In this document: piece after piece, positions 18,538 through 37,160 of the stretch
Position numbering within the stretch: the stretch's first letter is position 1
How the letters are laid out: each line of letters starts with the position of its first letter
IMG/VR virus record: IMGVR_UViG_3300028422_000919
Coordinates: 124,001-188,000 of that record
DNA length: 64,000 nucleotides
Direction: 5' to 3' (one strand)
DNA from: a virus
The notes under the pieces: model-generated
What the model saw: only the letters and a program-made list of their open reading frames with translations
Told to the model about the DNA's origin: nothing
The model's database searches: none
Translations under genes and position numbers: made by a program

Positions 18538-19094
18538 GGGTCCTCGCAGAAGAAGTCATCGGGGTTGAGGCCCAGCGTCTGGGCCAAGAGGAGCAGCGCC
18601 CGCACGGTTACGAGTTGCTGCATCTCCTGTCGGGAGAGGGATGTGAGGCTATGCCCGCACACATCTGCTGTTGCGGTCTCCTGGTGGATAAAAAAAGCAG
18701 AGTTGATCCGGGTGTTCCATAGGCGAACCACGCAAATGTGGGCGTGAGGGCTCGTGACGCCCTGATCGGGATCGGGTTCGGCGTACCCCGTGGTGGCGAC
18801 GGCGATGTCCGCCTTGAACAGGCGGAGGCACCCTTCGGCCATCTCCAGAGCCACTCTTGGTGCCACGCAGTTGAAGGCAGCGGCGTGCTCCCGGTCCACC
18901 CCCAGAAGAGCCACCTTCTGATCGATATTGTAGGCGCACACCCCACCCACGAACGAATGGGAGGCCCCTGAGACAGAGCCCAGAGCCGCCTGGATGTTCC
19001 CTGCGGTCAGGGATTCTGCCGTGGCGATCGTGAACCCCTTGCTCCTTGCTTCGTTTTCGATGGCCTTCACCAGGCTCTGGATGTCTACGTCCAT
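18534..19094 (-). CDS. pncC: CinA C-terminal / PncC-type nicotinamide-nucleotide amidase
   Basis: This family deamidates NMN to nicotinate mononucleotide, returning the by-product of LigA to NAD+ synthesis. The sequence follows the family: ATAESLTAGNIQAALGS, SHSFVGGVCAYNIDQKVALLG, APRVALEMAEGCLRLF and VATTGYAEPDPD. Typical copies have ESCTGG and TGIAGP, so some active-site positions are substituted here (SLTAG, TGYAEP), and activity should be tested rather than assumed. At 186 residues it lacks the CinA N-terminal domain, like free-standing PncC. ATG 19094 has a short upstream site. It shares an operon with the UDG and tmk genes. Confidence 0.8.
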   Translation of the reverse strand: MDVDIQSLVKAIENEARSKGFTIATAESLTAGNIQAALGSVSGASHSFVGGVCAYNIDQKVALLGVDREHAAAFNCVAPRVALEMAEGCLRLFKADIAVATTGYAEPDPDQGVTSPHAHICVVRLWNTRINSAFFIHQETATADVCGHSLTSLSRQEMQQLVTVRALLLLAQTLGLNPDDFFCEDP

Positions 19095-19122: not shown

Positions 19123-19716
19123 TTACCCTTCGAGGCTTGGGCCGCAAACCCACATGTGCCAGGTTTCACCATCTCGCAGTCCGGTCAACCTGGAAAAAGG
19201 GGCGTTGTCCGGAAAGTATCCCTTGGGGAGCCCGAGGCAATCCTCCACCACTGTAGTCAGCTCTCCCGCACTCCTTCCTTCGTCGTCCAGGAACAGGGCT
19301 TTGCAGAGCATGACCCTTTCCCCAGAGATTGTGGTTGGGCGGAAGCACACGGAATCGACCTCCATGCCAGCTTCCGTCAGCGCATCGTATACCTGGTCCG
19401 CAGTCCGACGGCGGTTCTCGTTCTCGTCCTCGATCATGTTGTGGATCAGGAGGGGGAGAGACAGCCTCGGGGGGCTCCTGTTTACTGCATGGAGGCCGAA
19501 CTCGGTCACTTTCCAGGTGGAGTGCCACGCCTGGGGGACGCTTTCTAGCATCCCCGCCGACTCCAACTCTTCAATCAAGGGAAGCACCTTTTCGTCTTCG
19601 GGGCCTCCCCGCAGCTCGAAGGTCCCCGGGTTCTTACGGATCAGATCGAGGGCGGCTTCCGAAACCTGGAATGTGATGGTCACCTGCCGACGGCTTGGAT
19701 TGAACTCTCTTTTCAT
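19123..19716 (-). CDS. Hypothetical protein, 197 aa
   Basis: Not recognised. The N-terminal 100 residues look like a winged helix (VSEAALDLIRKNP, then LIEELESAGMLESV, then WKVTEFGLHAVN), so it may be a DNA-binding or transcription-related protein. It is the first gene of the 13.9-19.7 kb minus-strand operon. ATG 19716 lies about 62 bases below a promoter motif with a 16-base spacer. Confidence 0.7.
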   Translation of the reverse strand: MKREFNPSRRQVTITFQVSEAALDLIRKNPGTFELRGGPEDEKVLPLIEELESAGMLESVPQAWHSTWKVTEFGLHAVNRSPPRLSLPLLIHNMIEDENENRRRTADQVYDALTEAGMEVDSVCFRPTTISGERVMLCKALFLDDEGRSAGELTTVVEDCLGLPKGYFPDNAPFSRLTGLRDGETWHMWVCGPSLEG

Positions 19717-19804: not shown

Positions 19805-19864
19805 AGGACGGTAGCGTCCCTATGCCCCTCCTGGAGTGCAAGCCTTAGCCTGGAGGTCACCCCG

Positions 19865-22846
19865 ATGAGCAGTCTTTTCCGCCACCTTCGGAGTCCCGGA
19901 ACCCTGAAAAGCCGACCCGCCCCTCTAGCCACCCCCACCCTCCCAGCTCCCCCGGTGAAACCCCAACGCTTGGCTTCCGTGTTCATCGCCACACACCACC
20001 GCCCAGAGCTGCTCAAGTTGTCCCTGGGGCAGTTTGCCCGAATGCCTGTCCCTCCGGGGTGGGCTGTGGAAATCCTGGTGTCCGGGGTCCCTGGAGACCC
20101 AGGGAAAGCAGTGGCTCTCCAGTTCCCGGGAGTTCAATACCTGGATAGCCCGACTGAGGTGGTCACCGACAAGATGAACCTTTGCCTCCAGGCAGCTCAG
20201 GGGGAACTGGCGATCCTAGGGGATGATGATGACATCCAACCCATGAACCGGATCTCGGAGTCTATCCGGGCCTTTGAAGAAGGGTTCGACTGGTCGGGGT
20301 CTGGGGATCTATGGTTCTACCACCCCGAGCCGGACCGCATGGTGTTCTGGTCAGGGCGGTCTTCCCGAGGGCTTGTGGGGACCAGCATGTCGTACAGCAT
20401 CACCATGCTCAGGCAGGCTGGGGGATGGCCCCGGAGGTCCAAGGGCAAAGACGGGGCATTGGCGTACCGGATGACCTCGTTGGGGGCCAAGTTCAAGGAT
20501 ATCTCCCTCACCGTCGGCCAGAGCCTGGTGGGAGTCCAGCACGGGAAGAACATCTGGCGAAGGCCCCCACTCGCCAAGGGGGCCAAAGAGACCCAGGGGA
20601 GGTTCCAGTTGGAGGGCCGGGGGACATTGGAAGAGTTGCAGGGGCAGCTCGACCCAACTGTGGTCTCAGCTTTGAAAGCGTTTCGCCAGACCCGGGCGGG
20701 GATCCCCCGAAATCAGAAGTCCCCAGACCTTCTTTGCACCGCTTCGATGGCCTCAATCCCTGGCCGAGAGGACCTGCTGAGGCAAGCTGTCCAGTCTCTC
20801 CTCCCCCAGGTGGACCACCTGAATGTCTATCTGAACGAGTATCCCGAGGTGCCCACCTTCTTGCAGGGCCACCCTCAGATCACGGTGGCCCGGAGCCAGG
20901 ATCACGGAAACAGGGGGGACGCCGGCAAGTTCTTTTGGTCGGCTGGCATCGAGGGATACCACTTCACCTGCGATGACGACATCGTGTACCCCCCGGACTA
21001 CGTCACCCGAGCGGTGAAGGCCGTTGAGCACTTCGGGCGTAGGGCGGTGCTCAGTTTCCACGGGACCATCCTCAGGGACAATCCGAAGGTCTACTACGAA
21101 GACCGGAAGGTCACCTACCACTGCCTCAGGCATGTCCCCCGAGACCATGCCGTGCATGTGGCGGGGACCGGGGTCATGGTCTACCACGCCAGCACGATCA
21201 AGGTGTCCCCAGACCTGTTCCGCCACCCCAACATGGCCGACATGTGGATGGCGAAGCACTGCCAGGAGTGCAGTATCCCTCAGGTTGTCGTTAACCACCC
21301 CGAAGGATGGATCAAAACTCACAGGGTGGTGGACACCATCTACTCCCGGTCTGCACGGTTGAAGGATGGATCGTTCATGGATTCGTCCGCCGTTCAGAAT
21401 CAGGTCGTCCGGGAAATTCCCTGGGTCCTGTTCCCGATCCCCCTTCCTCCCGCTGCCCGTTCAGGGGAGAAGAAGGTGGTTGTCACAGTGTTCACGTACA
21501 ACCGGCCCCACCAACTTCGTACCTTGCTCCAGGAGCTAAGGCTGGAAGCCCAGATGCCGGGGTTCAACGTGTCGGTACGGGTGTTCGACGATGCCTCTGA
21601 CATGGACAACTCGGAGGCCGAGAGAATCGCATCCTCGGAGGGATGGGAGTACCACAAGGCCTCTCAGAACCATGGTAAGAAGAAATTCTGGGAGTGGTAC
21701 ACCACTGCTCTACAAGGTCTCCGCAACACCCCCGCCGACTACTACGTGTTCCTGCCCGACGACGTGAGGTTGTGCTGCGGGTTCGTCAGCAGAGCCGTTC
21801 AGTCTTGGGAGGGCATTCGGGACCCCCGCAAAGCCACCTTGAACCTCATGGTGAATGAAGGCCGCCAGCACAAGGCGAACTGGACAGGGGTTCTCCCTTC
21901 CCGAAACGGCCGGGTATGGCACACCGGATGGGTGGATGGGTTGTTCATCTGCACTCGCAATACCCTGGAGGTGTTGGAGTTCCGCATCACCCCCCAGAAC
22001 AGGCCCTGGGAAACCCAGCCCCTCTTGGGGTCTGGGGTGGGGGCGGACATGAGCCGCAGGCTGCACCGGAAAGGGCACACGCTCTATCGGGTGGACCGCT
22101 CTCTGGTGGTCTCCTACCCCTTCAGCACGTCCAAGATGAACCCACAAGCCCGCAAGCAAGTCCCCCTGAAGACTATCCAGTACATCGACGAGCCCCAGAT
22201 CTCCGGTCAACGCCAGGTCGCTCGGGTAAGGGGTAGTCGGGACTACCTGATCGAGGTCATCCCTGGGGATCACGTCGGGCGTGCGTTGTCAACAGGAAAA
22301 TTCTATGAGGGGGAAATGCTGGCGGCAATCCGCCAGATGGGAGTCAAGGGGGTCTACGTGGACGTGGGGGCCTTTGTCGGCAGCCACACTACGTTCTTCG
22401 CCGGAGAGTGCCCCTCTTCGCACGTCATCGCCATCGAGCCCCAGGAGGTGGCCTACAGCCGATTGGTGGAGACCATCCGCCAGAATCGGCTGAACGCCAC
22501 TGCCATCCACGGTGCCATCCACGACGAATGGGCTAGGTGCTCCATCCAGAAACCCCCCTTGGGGAACTACGGCATGGCGAAGGTGGTGGAAGGGGGGAGG
22601 ATCCCCTGCTACGACCTGGACTCTCTTCTGGAGGGTCAGGAGATAGGGCTCATCAAGATTGATGTGGAGGGGAAAGAGATCAGTGTCCTGAAGAGTGCCC
22701 ACCAGACCATCGAGAGGTTCCGCCCCGTCATCATCACAGAGGCTCAGACGGAAGATGACCTCCGTTTGCTCAAAGAGGCACTTCCGGGATATGCCCCATC
22801 CAAGTCCTACAACTCCACCCCCACGTACATCTGGACCCCGAGCTGA
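19865..22846 (+). CDS. Triple glycosyltransferase fused to FkbM-type methyltransferase
   Basis: A 993-residue, four-domain protein. Domain 1 (about residues 40-250): GT-A fold with ASVFIATHHRPELLKLSL and metal-binding LGDDDDIQPMNR. Domain 2 (about 280-490): ASMASIPGREDLLRQAVQSL with FTCDDDIVYPPDYVTRAV. Domain 3 (about 535-770): VVTVFTYNRPHQLRTLLQEL with YVFLPDDVRLCCGFVSRAV. The last 200 residues form an FkbM-family SAM methyltransferase: YVDVGAFVGSHTTFF, VIAIEPQEVAYSRL and LIKIDVEGKEISVLK. FkbM enzymes methylate sugar hydroxyls. The protein may build and cap a glycan on phage DNA, virions or host surface. The start is the ATG at 19865 after GGAGG. Confidence 0.88.
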   Translation: MSSLFRHLRSPGTLKSRPAPLATPTLPAPPVKPQRLASVFIATHHRPELLKLSLGQFARMPVPPGWAVEILVSGVPGDPGKAVALQFPGVQYLDSPTEVVTDKMNLCLQAAQGELAILGDDDDIQPMNRISESIRAFEEGFDWSGSGDLWFYHPEPDRMVFWSGRSSRGLVGTSMSYSITMLRQAGGWPRRSKGKDGALAYRMTSLGAKFKDISLTVGQSLVGVQHGKNIWRRPPLAKGAKETQGRFQLEGRGTLEELQGQLDPTVVSALKAFRQTRAGIPRNQKSPDLLCTASMASIPGREDLLRQAVQSLLPQVDHLNVYLNEYPEVPTFLQGHPQITVARSQDHGNRGDAGKFFWSAGIEGYHFTCDDDIVYPPDYVTRAVKAVEHFGRRAVLSFHGTILRDNPKVYYEDRKVTYHCLRHVPRDHAVHVAGTGVMVYHASTIKVSPDLFRHPNMADMWMAKHCQECSIPQVVVNHPEGWIKTHRVVDTIYSRSARLKDGSFMDSSAVQNQVVREIPWVLFPIPLPPAARSGEKKVVVTVFTYNRPHQLRTLLQELRLEAQMPGFNVSVRVFDDASDMDNSEAERIASSEGWEYHKASQNHGKKKFWEWYTTALQGLRNTPADYYVFLPDDVRLCCGFVSRAVQSWEGIRDPRKATLNLMVNEGRQHKANWTGVLPSRNGRVWHTGWVDGLFICTRNTLEVLEFRITPQNRPWETQPLLGSGVGADMSRRLHRKGHTLYRVDRSLVVSYPFSTSKMNPQARKQVPLKTIQYIDEPQISGQRQVARVRGSRDYLIEVIPGDHVGRALSTGKFYEGEMLAAIRQMGVKGVYVDVGAFVGSHTTFFAGECPSSHVIAIEPQEVAYSRLVETIRQNRLNATAIHGAIHDEWARCSIQKPPLGNYGMAKVVEGGRIPCYDLDSLLEGQEIGLIKIDVEGKEISVLKSAHQTIERFRPVIITEAQTEDDLRLLKEALPGYAPSKSYNSTPTYIWTPS

Positions 22847-22848
22847 CC

Positions 22849-23619
22849 TTAGCCCCCAGAAGCGCAGCTCATCTTGTGGTGCCGGGTGACGGTTCCACAT
22901 TCCTTGCAAGGAGCCATCTCCTGGACGTCGGGACACCCCAGATCAGGGTAGTACGTCCTTCTCTCTTCGGGGTACCAGTGCCTGTTGGGGGTCCTCAGGA
23001 TGCCTCCAGCGGGCTTTGCTGCTTGCCTCCCCAGCATCCTCAGAGCCTTCCTGACGTGCTTGTCATGGAACCCCCCCGTGCTGCTGGCCGTCCTAAGGTG
23101 GACAGCCCTCAGCCTCCCAAAGTCGGAGTGATCGTCTAGGATGATGAACGGAGTTTCCAGCATCTCGGCCCGGGGCAGATGCGTCAGAAGCCACTGCTCG
23201 ATCTCCATCCCTCGTTGGATGTGGCCCGTCTGATCAGGGGTGTAGTCGAACCCCCCCCAGAGAATTCCTGTGACGGAGATGACCCTCTGGGGCTGCCGGA
23301 GGCCCCTCTGAGACAGAAGGTTCCTCAACTCCTCCAGAGTAAAGGACTTCCGCCACGTCGAGGACACAACGATCCGGGCACATGTCCGCTCGGCCAGGTC
23401 GTTGAGGTGTTTGACGTTCCTGGGATCGATGTCCGTCAGACCCTGCAAGTTGCAGTAGACATCCCGCACATTCCCGTTACGGGGCCGGCCGGCCAATTGC
23501 CACTGGTAGTAGGCCTCATCGCACTGCCGAGAGAGAGGCTTCCGAAAGGAAGACTTCCAGAACCGACGATTGTTCAGGACGCCGTCAATGTCCAGGAACA
23601 GGATGGGATCAGGTTGCAT
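22849..23619 (-). CDS. HAD-superfamily phosphatase-like protein
   Basis: A haloacid-dehalogenase core is readable: FLDIDGVLNNRRFW with the nucleophile and acid/base aspartates, VVSSTWRKSF as motif II, and FIILDDHSDFG as motif IV. This spacing matches the small HAD group of phage and RNA-repair-associated phosphatases. The C-terminal 50 residues hold CKECGTVTRHHKMSC, a likely zinc site. ATG 23619 follows a short upstream AAGG-like site. The gene ends tail to tail with the glycosyltransferase gene, three bases apart. Confidence 0.8.
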   Translation of the reverse strand: MQPDPILFLDIDGVLNNRRFWKSSFRKPLSRQCDEAYYQWQLAGRPRNGNVRDVYCNLQGLTDIDPRNVKHLNDLAERTCARIVVSSTWRKSFTLEELRNLLSQRGLRQPQRVISVTGILWGGFDYTPDQTGHIQRGMEIEQWLLTHLPRAEMLETPFIILDDHSDFGRLRAVHLRTASSTGGFHDKHVRKALRMLGRQAAKPAGGILRTPNRHWYPEERRTYYPDLGCPDVQEMAPCKECGTVTRHHKMSCASGG

Positions 23620-25853: not shown

Positions 25854-27683
25854 TCAGGTGAGCCAGTCGAACTCGACCACGTAGCGGATTCGCTGGTAGT
25901 CGGGGGAGAAGATGATGTGCTCATCGTTCTCTAGCCCGTGCCCGTTATCTCCACCGACCCCGAAGACCGAGTCGGACTGGACCTGGGCCCCGCCACACTG
26001 ACAGGTCGTGGCCCCACCCCGGTTACCGTAGGAGCGGTAGGTGCCCTGCATGTTGTTCGGGCGGTGGCACTTGACACAGCTCTGGGGAGGGCTGCTCCAG
26101 GAGCCCGTCGAAGGCGCCCGGTAGGCATGCCCCATGATCATGTCCGTGACGAACATGAAACATCCCCGGTTCTGGACCCCGCCCCCACCCCCGCCGCTGT
26201 AGTAGCCTCGCCCCGTGTAGCCGTAGCTCTTCCGCCAGTCGGTGGCGAAGTAGATACCGTGTCCGAAATTGGCCCCGGTGATCTGGGCTCCCGGCAAGCT
26301 CTGAGGGAGCCGGAAATTAGTCCCCATGATGGGGGCGATGTTGACCGGGCGGGTGCCGTGGATGCTCAGGATGACGTTCGCCTGGGCGTACTCATCGGAG
26401 AGACCCGCCAGGTCGGTCCGGCGAGGTTGGAGATTGCCCCGGAGGGAGAACTTACCCTGGACACGGGCACCAACCCTTTGAACTTCCGCCAGGAAGCGGG
26501 CGTCTCGATCGGGACGTTCCACAGCAAACAGAGAACGGACCTTGGGAGACTTGGATCCCATGTAACCGTGCCGGTTGTTGCTCATGTGGACGAAAGCATC
26601 CCAGAGCCACTTCCCCTCGGTCCCGTTCGGATCGATCCAGCGGAGCTGAGCGTTCAGCAGGGAATCCGGATCGATGGACTGGACCGGAGTTGTCGTCGTG
26701 AAGTCCTCGGTCGTCAGAGCGGTCTCGAAGGCGTCGAGGTCCGCCTGGAGGGACAGGAGGTTGCCTGAGTTCAGGATGGCCTGCTCGTCGGTCCATCCCG
26801 TCCGGGGGATAGGACGGGGAACCAGACTGTTGACCGTGGTCGAGATGGTCCGCAGAGCGGAGTCCTTGACCTGGGCGGCCACCAGGGCATCGTTGTCCCG
26901 GAAGTTGGTGCCCACGGCGGCCAGTCGCTGAAGGGCCGCCGGGATGAGCTGGTCTCGAACCTTCGAGATGGCCCGCATGGTCGGAGTCACACCGCTGGCC
27001 TGGGACAGGGAGCGGGTGTACGTCTGGGTGCCGCCGACGAGGTCCCTGGCGAGTTGGACGACCTCGGGCTGCCACGACTTCAGAGACTTGACCACAGCGG
27101 GGGCGGCCGTCTTGACCGGCGTGGGAGCAGGCATGGCGACCCCGGACCCGTCTTTGACGGTCAGCACGTCGGGGAGCCCCTTCTCACGAGTTGCTAGGTC
27201 CTGGATGAGATAGCCGTCTTTGCCAGCCTTGGCACACCACAGGTCGATGCCCCCGATGCTCTTGCACTCCAGACGGGCCAGGTTCTTGTCTCGGACCTGC
27301 CCAGCGAACCAGGAACGGGCCTGGTCGAGGGTGGCCCCCACGGTGAACTGGAAATCCTGGTAGGCCCCCGTCCAGGAGCCGTGCTCCCAGCTCTTCCCCG
27401 GACGGGAACGACCCCACTCGAAGTAGGCGTGGTACTGGCCCGTCTTCTTGTCCCGCACCACCCCGGCGTGGTAGCCCTTGGCGTTGTTCGCTTCCCCGAA
27501 CTGGTTGACGCACACCATGTCCACGAGCCCGATGTCGGGGTTGGGCATGGAACCGTTCAGGTACCCATTTTCGTCGATGGCGGGCTTTCCGACGTACTCG
27601 AAGTCGTCAGGAGAGCAGCCTGCGGGGAGCTGGCGCTTGCCCAACTTGTCGTTGGTCCCAGGTTTCTTGACGGCGATGGTCAT
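25854..27683 (-). CDS. WGR-domain PARP-like ADP-ribosyltransferase
   Basis: The protein should transfer ADP-ribose from NAD+ to a protein or nucleic-acid target. The N-terminal 130 residues contain a WGR-like domain (HAYFEWGRSRPG), the middle resembles the helical PARP regulatory domain, and the last 180 residues are a PARP catalytic domain. The His, Tyr and Glu of the H-Y-E signature are visible: SIHGTRPVN (near 443), GHGIYFATDWRKSYGYT (near 477) and NDEHIIFSPDY (near 587). Between them a zinc-ribbon-like insert (CVKCHRP ... CQCGG) replaces the usual loop and is unusual. At 609 residues it is complete. It has its own promoter. An ADP-ribosylglycohydrolase is encoded at 44722-45627. Confidence 0.9.
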   Translation of the reverse strand: MTIAVKKPGTNDKLGKRQLPAGCSPDDFEYVGKPAIDENGYLNGSMPNPDIGLVDMVCVNQFGEANNAKGYHAGVVRDKKTGQYHAYFEWGRSRPGKSWEHGSWTGAYQDFQFTVGATLDQARSWFAGQVRDKNLARLECKSIGGIDLWCAKAGKDGYLIQDLATREKGLPDVLTVKDGSGVAMPAPTPVKTAAPAVVKSLKSWQPEVVQLARDLVGGTQTYTRSLSQASGVTPTMRAISKVRDQLIPAALQRLAAVGTNFRDNDALVAAQVKDSALRTISTTVNSLVPRPIPRTGWTDEQAILNSGNLLSLQADLDAFETALTTEDFTTTTPVQSIDPDSLLNAQLRWIDPNGTEGKWLWDAFVHMSNNRHGYMGSKSPKVRSLFAVERPDRDARFLAEVQRVGARVQGKFSLRGNLQPRRTDLAGLSDEYAQANVILSIHGTRPVNIAPIMGTNFRLPQSLPGAQITGANFGHGIYFATDWRKSYGYTGRGYYSGGGGGGVQNRGCFMFVTDMIMGHAYRAPSTGSWSSPPQSCVKCHRPNNMQGTYRSYGNRGGATTCQCGGAQVQSDSVFGVGGDNGHGLENDEHIIFSPDYQRIRYVVEFDWLT

Positions 27684-27716
27684 ATAGTAGGTCCTCACAT
27701 TCAGTCTCAGAAAGGG

Positions 27717-30810: not shown

Positions 30811-31599
30811 TCAGAGGGTCTTGGCGGCGTTCACGTACTCCGCATCGGTGACCGAATCCTCCTCGATCCTTTGCCTCAAGGCGAGGAGGGAGGCCATCGG
30901 CTGAGGCTCGACGGGAATAGCGGCCACCATGTCGAATTCGGCGGCGAACTCCGACAGGGCATCCTGTTCCAGAACTTCGTGCTCGACCTCGGACATCACC
31001 CAGGCGTTGCCGGAGTTGGCCTCGGCGGCGACTCGGGTGCGGCCCTGGGCGTTGGTGATCTGCTCGTTGAGGCTCTTCTCCAGGTCGGAGAGCCCCTGCC
31101 CGTCCGGGTTGAACGTCAGCTCGGAAGCCATCTCCGAGAGCTTGGCCTGGGCGTTTGCCATTTCCGCCTGGGAGATCTTGCCCCTGACCGTTTCGATCTT
31201 CGTCATCGACTGCTTGACGAAGATGTCCCTCTGACGGGTGAGCTGCTGGAACTGCTCTTCGGCGGCCTGGAGCTGGCGCTCGTTCTCGGTGATGTTGGCC
31301 TGTACCATCTTGCGTTGGCCGGCGAGTTGGCCGGCAAGGGTGGCTTTGCCAGCCTTCATGAGGGCCTTGATTCGGATTACGAGTTGGGCTTCTTTGGCCC
31401 GATCGTCCTGAAGCTGAAGCTCCAGGCGGCGGCGGAAGGCATCCTGTTTCGCCAGATTCTGGTTGAACGTCGCCTGGTTCTTCTGAAACTCCTGGATGTG
31501 CGCATCCAGAAGGGCCTTCGGGTTCGACTTCTCGATCCCGCCGATGAACAGGCCGAGGAACCCTCGGATGAGTCGCATGATGCGTCGGAAGAAACTCAT
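30811..31599 (-). CDS. PspA/IM30 (ESCRT-III superfamily)-like protein
   Basis: The N-terminus has the amphipathic membrane-binding helix of PspA (SFFRRIMRLIRGFLGLF). It is followed by long antiparallel helices (QEFQKNQATFNQNLAKQ, LVIRIKALMKAGKATLAGQ, ITENERQLQAAEEQF), the helical hairpin typical of PspA/Vipp1. These proteins bind and remodel the inner membrane and keep the proton gradient under stress. At 262 residues it is slightly longer than bacterial PspA. Its own promoter is 61 bases upstream, and the TPM-domain membrane protein gene lies just above it. A role in membrane protection or remodelling during infection is inferred. Confidence 0.82.
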   Translation of the reverse strand: MSFFRRIMRLIRGFLGLFIGGIEKSNPKALLDAHIQEFQKNQATFNQNLAKQDAFRRRLELQLQDDRAKEAQLVIRIKALMKAGKATLAGQLAGQRKMVQANITENERQLQAAEEQFQQLTRQRDIFVKQSMTKIETVRGKISQAEMANAQAKLSEMASELTFNPDGQGLSDLEKSLNEQITNAQGRTRVAAEANSGNAWVMSEVEHEVLEQDALSEFAAEFDMVAAIPVEPQPMASLLALRQRIEEDSVTDAEYVNAAKTL

Positions 31600-35089: not shown

Positions 35090-36253
35090 TCAATCCACCT
35101 TTCTCTTTGGGAGGCCAACGTGGAACGTGGCCCCTTCTCCGGGCATAGCCTCGCAGTCGATCCAGCCTTGGTGACGATCTAGAATCTTCTTCACCAGTGC
35201 CAGACCGATGCCCGTGCCCGGATAGTCAAACCGGGTGTGAAGCCTCTCGAAGAGCTGGAACACCTTGTCTTTGAATGCCATGTCGAACCCGATCCCGTTG
35301 TCCGACACTGAAATCACCCAGTCCTCGTCGGTCTCCTGGGCGGTGAACTGGATCAAGGGCACCCTGTCGGGGTGCCGGAACTTGATGCTGTTGCTGATCA
35401 GGTTCTGAAGCACGGTCCGCATCTGGTAGCGGTCTGCCCAGACGGTAGGTAGGTCCTGTGCCAAAACCCGGGCATTGGCCTGTTCGATGGGGATGGCCAG
35501 GTCTTCCAGAATGCTGCGGAGGATCTTGTTGAGGTCCACTGCCTCAAAGGGGTCTTCCAGCCTCCCCACCCGGCTGTAGGACAGGAGGTCATCCATCAAC
35601 GACTGCATGCGCTCCGTGGCGTTCAACATCACGTCGATATATGACTGCCCCTTGTCGTCCAGCACTTCGGCGTACTTCTCCTTGAGCCTTTGGCCGAAGG
35701 CCCTCACTTTGAGCAGGGGTTCTCGGAGGTCATGGCTGGCAGCGTAAGCGAACTGACGTAGCTCATCGTTGGACAGTTGAAGCTCTTCCGTCCGGGCCCT
35801 CACTAGAGCTTCCAAATCCTGGACATTCCCTCGATGCTCCGTCACATCCCGTACCAGGACTAGGCACTCGTCCTCATGACTGCGGGCGAACCGAGCCTCG
35901 AACACGGAATTAGGATGATTGGGGACCTTGAACTCCCAGGTGATTACCTCTCCAGTGTCCATCGCTTGGAGGGCTTTATGCAGGGTGGCGTTTGCGAATT
36001 CCGGCCTGCCTACATCGAGAACCCGCCGGCCGATAACGTTCTGGTGATCCGCCAAGGGGGAGGCATTCAGCCCCGGCGCCATGTCGGCATAGAACCCTTC
36101 TCGGGTGATGATGCAGATCAGGTCGGGAGAGGCAATGCGGAGGGCATCCAGACGACCGGGATCATTGACTCGGCCGTAAGAGGGATCCTGCTGGCACCGA
36201 TTCAGAAACGGACAGCTCTTGCCCTGCAGGCACCAGTCGGGAGAACTGGACAT
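35090..36253 (-). CDS. Soluble PAS histidine kinase
   Basis: A full transmitter in 387 residues: a PAS-like sensor (about residues 40-145) after a Cys-rich N-terminus (WCLQGKSCPFLNRC), the H-box AASHDLREPLLKVRAFG, the N-box LQNLISNSIKFRH, the G1 box VSDNGIGFDM, the F box VFQLFERLHTRF and G2 box PGTGIGLALVKK. Nothing essential is missing, so it should autophosphorylate. It has no membrane helix, so the signal is probably cytoplasmic; the cysteines could bind metal or sense redox state. It is close to phytochrome-type kinases. It is encoded between two receiver proteins, one with a membrane helix. Confidence 0.93.
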   Translation of the reverse strand: MSSSPDWCLQGKSCPFLNRCQQDPSYGRVNDPGRLDALRIASPDLICIITREGFYADMAPGLNASPLADHQNVIGRRVLDVGRPEFANATLHKALQAMDTGEVITWEFKVPNHPNSVFEARFARSHEDECLVLVRDVTEHRGNVQDLEALVRARTEELQLSNDELRQFAYAASHDLREPLLKVRAFGQRLKEKYAEVLDDKGQSYIDVMLNATERMQSLMDDLLSYSRVGRLEDPFEAVDLNKILRSILEDLAIPIEQANARVLAQDLPTVWADRYQMRTVLQNLISNSIKFRHPDRVPLIQFTAQETDEDWVISVSDNGIGFDMAFKDKVFQLFERLHTRFDYPGTGIGLALVKKILDRHQGWIDCEAMPGEGATFHVGLPKRKVD

Positions 36254-36257
36254 GCCC

Positions 36258-37013
36258 TCACCCTACACTCTTGAGCGCCCGGATGGCTTCGACATCCACC
36301 ACCTGGACCAGGAGGGTTAGAAGAACCACGATGGTGATCAAACCCAGGAACAACATAACCGAAGCGACAGGGTGCAATGTGACCCATTCGGCCGTGTCCC
36401 GGACCCTATCCCAAGGGGTCTTCTTGATATTCTTGAGGATCTCTTCCTTTTGCTGGTCCAGCTTGACATCCAAGCGGCCGAACCCCTCTTTGAACTCGGA
36501 CCTCAGCTCACTTAGCTGAAAGGCAGTGCTGGTCTGAGCGGACGCACCCTCTCGGGTAAGGGATACTAGCTCCTGAACCTGGAGACCCACCCCTCCTGAT
36601 TCCGAGCCGTTTCGGATCTGCCTCTCATGTAGCCCGATGGCGTACAGGCAGGTCCGCTCCAGGAGGTCAGACGAGAAAGTCCCCTTCTCCAAGAATTCCG
36701 CCACCCCCGCCTCCAGAGCTTCATCCTGGAGACGGCGGTCCCCGTGGCTGGTGATAAGCACCACGGGGATGTGAAAATGCAGTCGCACCATCTCGGACAG
36801 CAGATCCATTCCGGACTGGTCGGGGAGACGATAGTCAAGGAGCATCACGTCGTAGCGGTGCTTCTTGACCTTCTCCAGGGCGGCGGCGGCGGTTTCGACG
36901 GCATCCACGCCAAACTTGGCCCGCTTGGAGTCATCGAGCAGGTCGATGACCAGCCGGGCGTCGTCCCGGTCGTCCTCAACCAACAGCACTCGAACAGTTG
37001 CGGGCGGGGGCAT
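36258..37013 (-). CDS. Membrane-anchored response regulator, receiver plus C-terminal helix
   Basis: An N-terminal REC domain (about residues 8-125): LLVEDDRDDARLV, MLLDYRLPDQSGMD, VVLITSHGD and EFLEKGTFS carry the conserved Asp, Thr/Ser and Lys. A coiled coil follows (EFKEGFGRLDVKLDQQKEE), and then a C-terminal membrane helix (VASVMLFLGLITIVVLLTLL). No known output domain is present. The regulator is therefore placed at the membrane, an unusual architecture. ATG 37013 has GGAGG eight bases upstream. It is the first gene of the three-gene two-component operon. Confidence 0.88.
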   Translation of the reverse strand: MPPPATVRVLLVEDDRDDARLVIDLLDDSKRAKFGVDAVETAAAALEKVKKHRYDVMLLDYRLPDQSGMDLLSEMVRLHFHIPVVLITSHGDRRLQDEALEAGVAEFLEKGTFSSDLLERTCLYAIGLHERQIRNGSESGGVGLQVQELVSLTREGASAQTSTAFQLSELRSEFKEGFGRLDVKLDQQKEEILKNIKKTPWDRVRDTAEWVTLHPVASVMLFLGLITIVVLLTLLVQVVDVEAIRALKSVG

Positions 37014-37160
37014 GTCTCGAACCTCCAAAAACAGCAGGACCCTCCTAAGTTGGGGCCGCTACCACGTATGGATTATCGAGCATCTACCATTCTCGGGGCC
37101 GACTTCACGATAGTGGTCCCTAGTCCCCCATCTTCTGGCCAGTGTTGTGATCCCTCACAG

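Follow-up and report, generated by a model that had tools for sequence, protein, structure and literature searches.

Gene and genomic context

The window, the whole 64,000-nucleotide stretch of DNA that was analyzed, comprises bases 124001-188000 of a source record of 402,383 bases. The record was confirmed to be a tailed phage by its PHROGs matches to the terminase large subunit, DNA polymerase, helicase, RIIA, and GroEL. Pfam searches of the record gave no match for a terminase or a T4-type capsid; the terminase was later identified with PHROGs. The gene described here is a single intact ORF of 993 codons plus a stop codon, without interruption, and is preceded by a ribosome-binding site (Table 1). 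Its reading frame remains open further upstream, to a TTG at position 19046; we consider the ATG at 19865 the better start because the upstream extension overlaps a plausible minus-strand gene that ends at 19123. The maximum hydropathy of the protein over 19 residues is 0.96, which indicates that it has no membrane segment.

An earlier note on this DNA had described the gene as the lone plus-strand gene between two minus-strand blocks, and in the codon-usage gene call it is indeed the sole plus-strand gene between 13966 and 38083, with genes on the minus strand alone to either side of it from 13963 to 37883. The terminase gene is located about 200 kb away, which places the gene outside the head operon, and its neighbors include nucleotide and DNA-repair genes (thymidylate kinase, UDG-family, and DNA ligase).

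Table 1. Location of the fusion gene, its predicted domains, and selected neighboring features (window coordinates).
Feature	Position	Strand	Residues	Evidence or remark
Ribosome-binding site, GGAGGT	19852-19857	+		Read directly; 7 nt 5' of the ATG at 19865
Whole gene, GT-A / GT45 / GT-A / FkbM fusion	19865-22846	+	993 aa	No transmembrane segment
D1, GT2-type GT-A, DDDD site	19967-20650	+	~35-262	Pfam PF00535, alignment, model
D2, GT45 (KfiA / heparosan synthase alpha-GlcNAc-transferase kind), CDDDIVYP site	20720-21400	+	~286-510	PDB homology
D3, predicted divergent GT-A, PDDV site and SGVG motif	21470-22231	+	~536-789	28-sequence alignment, model
D4, FkbM methyltransferase, SAM motif DVGAFVGSHT intact	22250-22843	+	~796-993	TIGR01444, PF05050, alignment
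HAD_SAK_2 protein (HAD domain, RNA-repair proteins)	22849-23619	-		Convergent with the 993-aa gene
Protein with C-terminal PARP catalytic domain	25854-27698	-	614 aa	
PspA/IM30-family protein	30811-31599	-		
tRNA, CTA anticodon	34402-34477	-		ARAGORN, Pyl; Rfam tRNA, 60.8 bits
PAS-histidine kinase	35090-37028	-		Response regulator gene adjoins

Domain composition of the 993-aa protein

The proposal that the protein is a fusion of three GT-A glycosyltransferase domains and a FkbM methyltransferase was borne out by Pfam, NCBIfam, PDB homology, and structural models. A D-x-D-type site had been claimed for each glycosyltransferase; D1 (GDDDDIQP) and D2 (CDDDIVYP) contain one, whereas the corresponding site of D3 (LPDDVRL) is a DD pair and not a DxD motif.

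D1 matched PF00535 (Glycos_transf_2) with 32.9 bits, above the gathering cut-off of 23.3; its match to the NCBIfam glycosyltransferase model TIGR04440 reached 37.1 bits, under the cut-off of 70. In an alignment of five copies of D1, the DDDD, GK[DE], and QHxxN[IL]W motifs are conserved. The D1 model (pLDDT 87.6) has a GT-A fold, and its best Foldseek match was the fucosyltransferase WrtF (1.7e-11), followed by AvpGT and SpsA. This type of domain is common to the window and three other large phage contigs.

The homology of D2 to the GlcNAc-transferase of PmHS2 (PDB 8vh7, 2.5e-30) and to KfiA (5z8b, 2e-16) spans the full domain. The DDD, a downstream H, and the D of MAD are conserved in the alignments, and the CDDDI(V/I)YP site is intact. 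Judged by its sequence and motif, D2 is a member of GT45; this is the strongest identification among the modules, and it had been overlooked in the earlier note.

The D3 sequence of the window alone had no match to the family models. Its relatives matched PF00535 with 27-34 bits, and one of them matched GNT-I under the cut-off. The model built on an alignment of 28 sequences, in which the SGVG motif is conserved, has a pLDDT of 92.9 and a GT-A fold; in Foldseek it matched POMGnT1/GnT-I (GT13) and SpsA (GT2) with values of 1e-10 to 4e-9. This confident model predicts that D3 is a divergent GT-A domain, GT2/GT13-like.

D4 matched TIGR01444 with 82.2 bits against a cut-off of 37.7 (4.7e-23), and PF05050 with 1.6e-13, above the cut-off. 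All four modules keep their catalytic or cofactor motifs. The domain anatomy thus lends good support to the predicted assembly line with an O-methylation step in one chain.

Related multi-module proteins in large phages

The alignments of D1 and D3 were scanned across 2.9 million viral contigs from IMG/VR. In this search, which was built on short peptide patterns, multi-module fusions containing D1 were found in four contigs, including the window. The module orders of the other three proteins, as read by profile search and Pfam, are D1-D3-GT2-D2-FkbM (L008, 1304 aa), D3'-D1-D3-D2-D1' (L023, 1225 aa), and D3'-D1-GT2-GT-methyltransferase (L022, 1328 aa); the last has no GT45. L008 matches all four modules of the window protein with 38-46% identity. 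In the N-terminal D3' of L022 and L023, the DD pair is gone (FLHSG, FLPET); this domain is probably non-catalytic and may have been retained as a scaffold or binding domain. The loci are orthologous: orthologs of the window's DNA ligase, thymidylate kinase, UDG-family, or 24282-25166 genes are located near the related fusions. An assembly or frame artifact, or chance, was ruled out as the origin of the fusion, given homologous fusions in independent contigs and the retention of every module's motifs.

We calculated trees in which the sequences from the window, L008, and L023 were forced into one clade. This constraint was not rejected for D2 (p=0.14) and was weakly rejected for D3 (p=0.022); given the latter, the idea that a single ancestral set of modules was simply reshuffled is unsupported. 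Because the trees do not establish a single clade for either D2 or D3, replacement of modules, perhaps including D3, is likely to have occurred besides their reordering.

In the phage of L022 (435 kb), genes for GDP-mannose 4,6-dehydratase and GDP-fucose synthase adjoin the multi-glycosyltransferase gene (L170:7352-9378, minus strand); the former exceeds its cut-off, and the latter scores 476 bits against a cut-off of 500. Additional GT2 genes adjoin the multi-glycosyltransferase gene of another related large phage. These neighbors tie the fusion locus to sugar metabolism and glycans. Considered together with the WrtF fold match, the GDP-fucose genes allow the reasonable guess, but only a guess, that D1 acts as a fucosyltransferase. 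Near the multi-glycosyltransferase gene of the L023 phage there is also a fusion of Radical SAM and methyltransferase domains (L168:8816-10372, minus strand).

GT45 and D3 in other phages and in bacteria

The scan with the GT45 alignment found 327 viral stretches and 46 stretches in a set of bacterial and archaeal genomes with each species represented once; the two counts are only roughly comparable, as the scan patterns differ slightly. Such assembly lines had been called rare in phages, which holds for the D1-containing fusions with their four IMG/VR contigs but not for the GT45 module. We retrieved 80 of the viral stretches. At 65% identity there were 39 GT45 clusters, two of them being the proteins of the window and of L008. 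Terminase, portal, capsid, protease, or scaffold genes were present within the retrieved flank for 17 of the 39 clusters; these 17 are not independent, as several share a related head module and they belong partly to one lineage. In ten clusters, the portal gene starts 32-158 nt 3' of the GT45 gene; in one, it ends 4 nt 5' of it. In many uncultivated phages, the D3 gene adjoins the GT45 gene or is fused to it. Among the individual stretches, L053, L046, L051, L077, L084, and others have GT45 between terminase and portal, often with the D3 gene just 5' of it. GT45, with or without D3, is thus a putative glycosylation module of head operons that would be widespread in uncultivated phages.

The tblastn searches of 50,697 deposited phages gave no match for the window's D3, for one further phage D3, or for three GT45 proteins from phages. 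The full 993-aa protein matched only FkbM domains among phages.

Among bacteria, FkbM-GT45 fusions of Sinorhizobium adjoin KpsM, KpsT-like, and KpsE-type capsule-export genes. An FkbM-GT45 protein from IMG/VR (L028) is nearly the same as the Sinorhizobium capsule protein in the tree; this stretch is possibly bacterial DNA classed as viral.

Comparison with known systems

KfiA and PmHS2 make heparosan. Over the whole domain, D2 resembles two GlcNAc-transferases, KfiA from E. coli K5 and the corresponding half of Pasteurella heparosan synthase 2, including their DDD, H, and D residues. In contrast to the heparosan synthase, D2 is not joined to a GT2 glucuronosyltransferase; it is located between two other GT-A domains, together with FkbM, in a phage. 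PmHS2 aligns with residues 286-495 only, and a GT2 beta-glucuronosyltransferase partner of the PmHS2/KfiC type is absent by sequence. With the GlcA-transferase half missing from its sequence, the 993-aa protein as a whole is not a heparosan synthase.

Virion glycosylation is known mainly from mycobacteriophages. Phage Corndog carries an O-methyltransferase gene and three glycosyltransferase genes between portal and protease (PMC4351075). Glycosylated proteins were reported for Che8, Corndog, and Myrna, and the capsid of Che8 is reported to be glycosylated (PMC12363180, PMC11256854). Che8 gp108 is a fusion of GT2 and a TylF-type O-methyltransferase, and the Che8 glycosyltransferase genes are located away from the head genes, close to the genome end. 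The window protein and these sets (Che8 gp108-110, Corndog gp35-38) likewise combine several glycosyltransferases with an O-methyltransferase in a phage; however, the Che8 proteins have only weak profile similarity to D1-D3. The mycobacteriophage methyltransferase is of the TylF type and the genes are mostly separate, whereas the window encodes FkbM and all modules in one chain. A position in the head operon is a feature of some virion-glycosylation gene sets, though not of Che8, and it is not seen for the window gene. By analogy, the 993-aa protein resembles the virion-glycosylation gene sets of phages and would be a putative member.

The FkbM-GT45-GT capsule protein of Sinorhizobium pSymB (L003, L004) also has FkbM and GT45 in one chain, and its GT45 is 48% identical to D2. 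It differs from the window protein in that FkbM is N-terminal, D1 and D3 are absent, and the gene is part of an ABC-export capsule cluster. No described phage enzyme with the architecture of the window protein was found in the databases and literature searched, and the literature search on FkbM in phages returned nothing relevant.

Proposed function and alternatives

We favor the interpretation that the protein is a soluble multi-step enzyme that decorates a protein of the virion with an O-methylated oligosaccharide, which we regard as plausible, if slightly short of probable. In the cytoplasm, the three GT-A transferases would extend an acceptor in turn: D1 would probably add a hexose or deoxyhexose, D2 would probably perform a GT45 alpha-GlcNAc-type transfer from UDP-GlcNAc, and D3 would contribute a GT2/GT13-like transfer. 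Two or three sugars may be transferred successively, and the FkbM domain would O-methylate a sugar hydroxyl as a cap or mark on the chain. Most likely, the chain would be built on one of the proteins that form the phage particle itself, giving a lineage-specific virion glycan; as a surface coat it could alter recognition or stability.

The earlier note had named DNA, virions, and the host surface as possible acceptors. A virion protein appears the most likely of these because smaller phages carry their GT45 and D3 genes in head operons (the 17 head-linked clusters above), because the best phage precedents, Corndog and Che8, pair glycosyltransferases with O-methyltransferases, and because the usual partners of the alternatives are missing from the record. 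Several observations count against it. The gene is far from the terminase, among nucleotide and DNA-repair genes; this distance does not exclude a virion acceptor, since the Che8 glycosyltransferase genes are also away from the head genes. The partly shared lineage of the head-linked GT45 phages means that these are fewer than seventeen independent cases. In addition, the Sinorhizobium fusions beside capsule-export genes suggest, by analogy, that the same kinds of modules can also serve surface polysaccharides.

The main rival is modification of the host surface, which we consider rather unlikely. The enzyme would build or alter a lipid-linked or polymeric glycan such as capsule or O-antigen, terminated by FkbM, and block superinfection or adsorption to debris. 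Bacterial GT45 homologs make capsule, as the Sinorhizobium gene order and the heparosan enzymes KfiA and PmHS2 illustrate, and a survey of jumbo phages proposed that their glycosyltransferase clusters alter host polysaccharide (PMC7824862). However, among the families tested, GtrA, the Polysacc_synt flippase, NDP-sugar epimerase, and NTP_transferase were all absent from the 402-kb record, so that Gtr-type serotype conversion would lack its flippase gene; the 993-aa protein has no membrane segment, and in small phages GT45 is associated with head genes, not with lysogeny or export genes. A chain polymerase, in which D2 and D3 alternate as in heparosan synthase and FkbM sets the chain length, is quite unlikely: many phages have D3 and GT45 as neighbors or in one protein, as in the KfiA/KfiC pair or PmHS2, but neither D1 nor D3 has a sequence match to the GlcA-transferase half of PmHS2.

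We regard it as very unlikely that the target is a host or phage protein or a small molecule unrelated to the particle, modified for counter-defense or takeover. Genes for PARP-domain, HAD/RNA-repair-type, and histidine-kinase proteins do occur in the surrounding stretch, but no match to a defense family was found, and three successive transferases plus a methylase exceed the needs of simple inactivation. The decoration of DNA, in which a hypermodified base is glycosylated and the sugar then methylated to resist restriction, seems highly improbable. It would fit the neighboring nucleotide and DNA enzymes, and virus glycosyltransferases that hypermodify DNA exist, according to the work of Pyle 2024 as cited in PMC12619734. 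DNA glycosylation becomes less likely because neither the record nor two of the three related contigs yielded a hydroxymethylase with the thymidylate-synthase fold, although another route of hydroxylation is possible; and no module resembles a DNA glucosyltransferase among the PDB matches listed.

Beyond the window, a broader and more tentative possibility is that this lineage of large phages keeps a modular assembly-line protein at a conserved locus, whose modules are reordered, duplicated, and replaced to give each phage its own O-methylated oligosaccharide coat on the virion, and that heparosan-type GT45 enzymes, for which tblastn found no match in deposited phages, are common coating tools in uncultivated phages. 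If so, module order in one polypeptide would make the glycan diversity of phages readable and testable. Virion glycosylation would then be widespread in uncultivated phages, with an enzyme set different from that of the mycobacteriophages. The proteins would also offer compact multi-step enzymes, combining GlcNAc-transferase and O-methyltransferase, for glycan synthesis.

Other genes in the neighborhood

The minus-strand genes 3' of the fusion gene include those for the HAD_SAK_2, PARP-domain, and PspA/IM30-family proteins (Table 1). The tRNA with a CTA anticodon is possibly an amber suppressor. It raised the idea of a genome with recoded TAG, which is unsupported, as TAG is the stop codon in 77 of the 372 called genes. 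This phage also encodes a two-component pair, formed by the PAS-histidine kinase and the response regulator.
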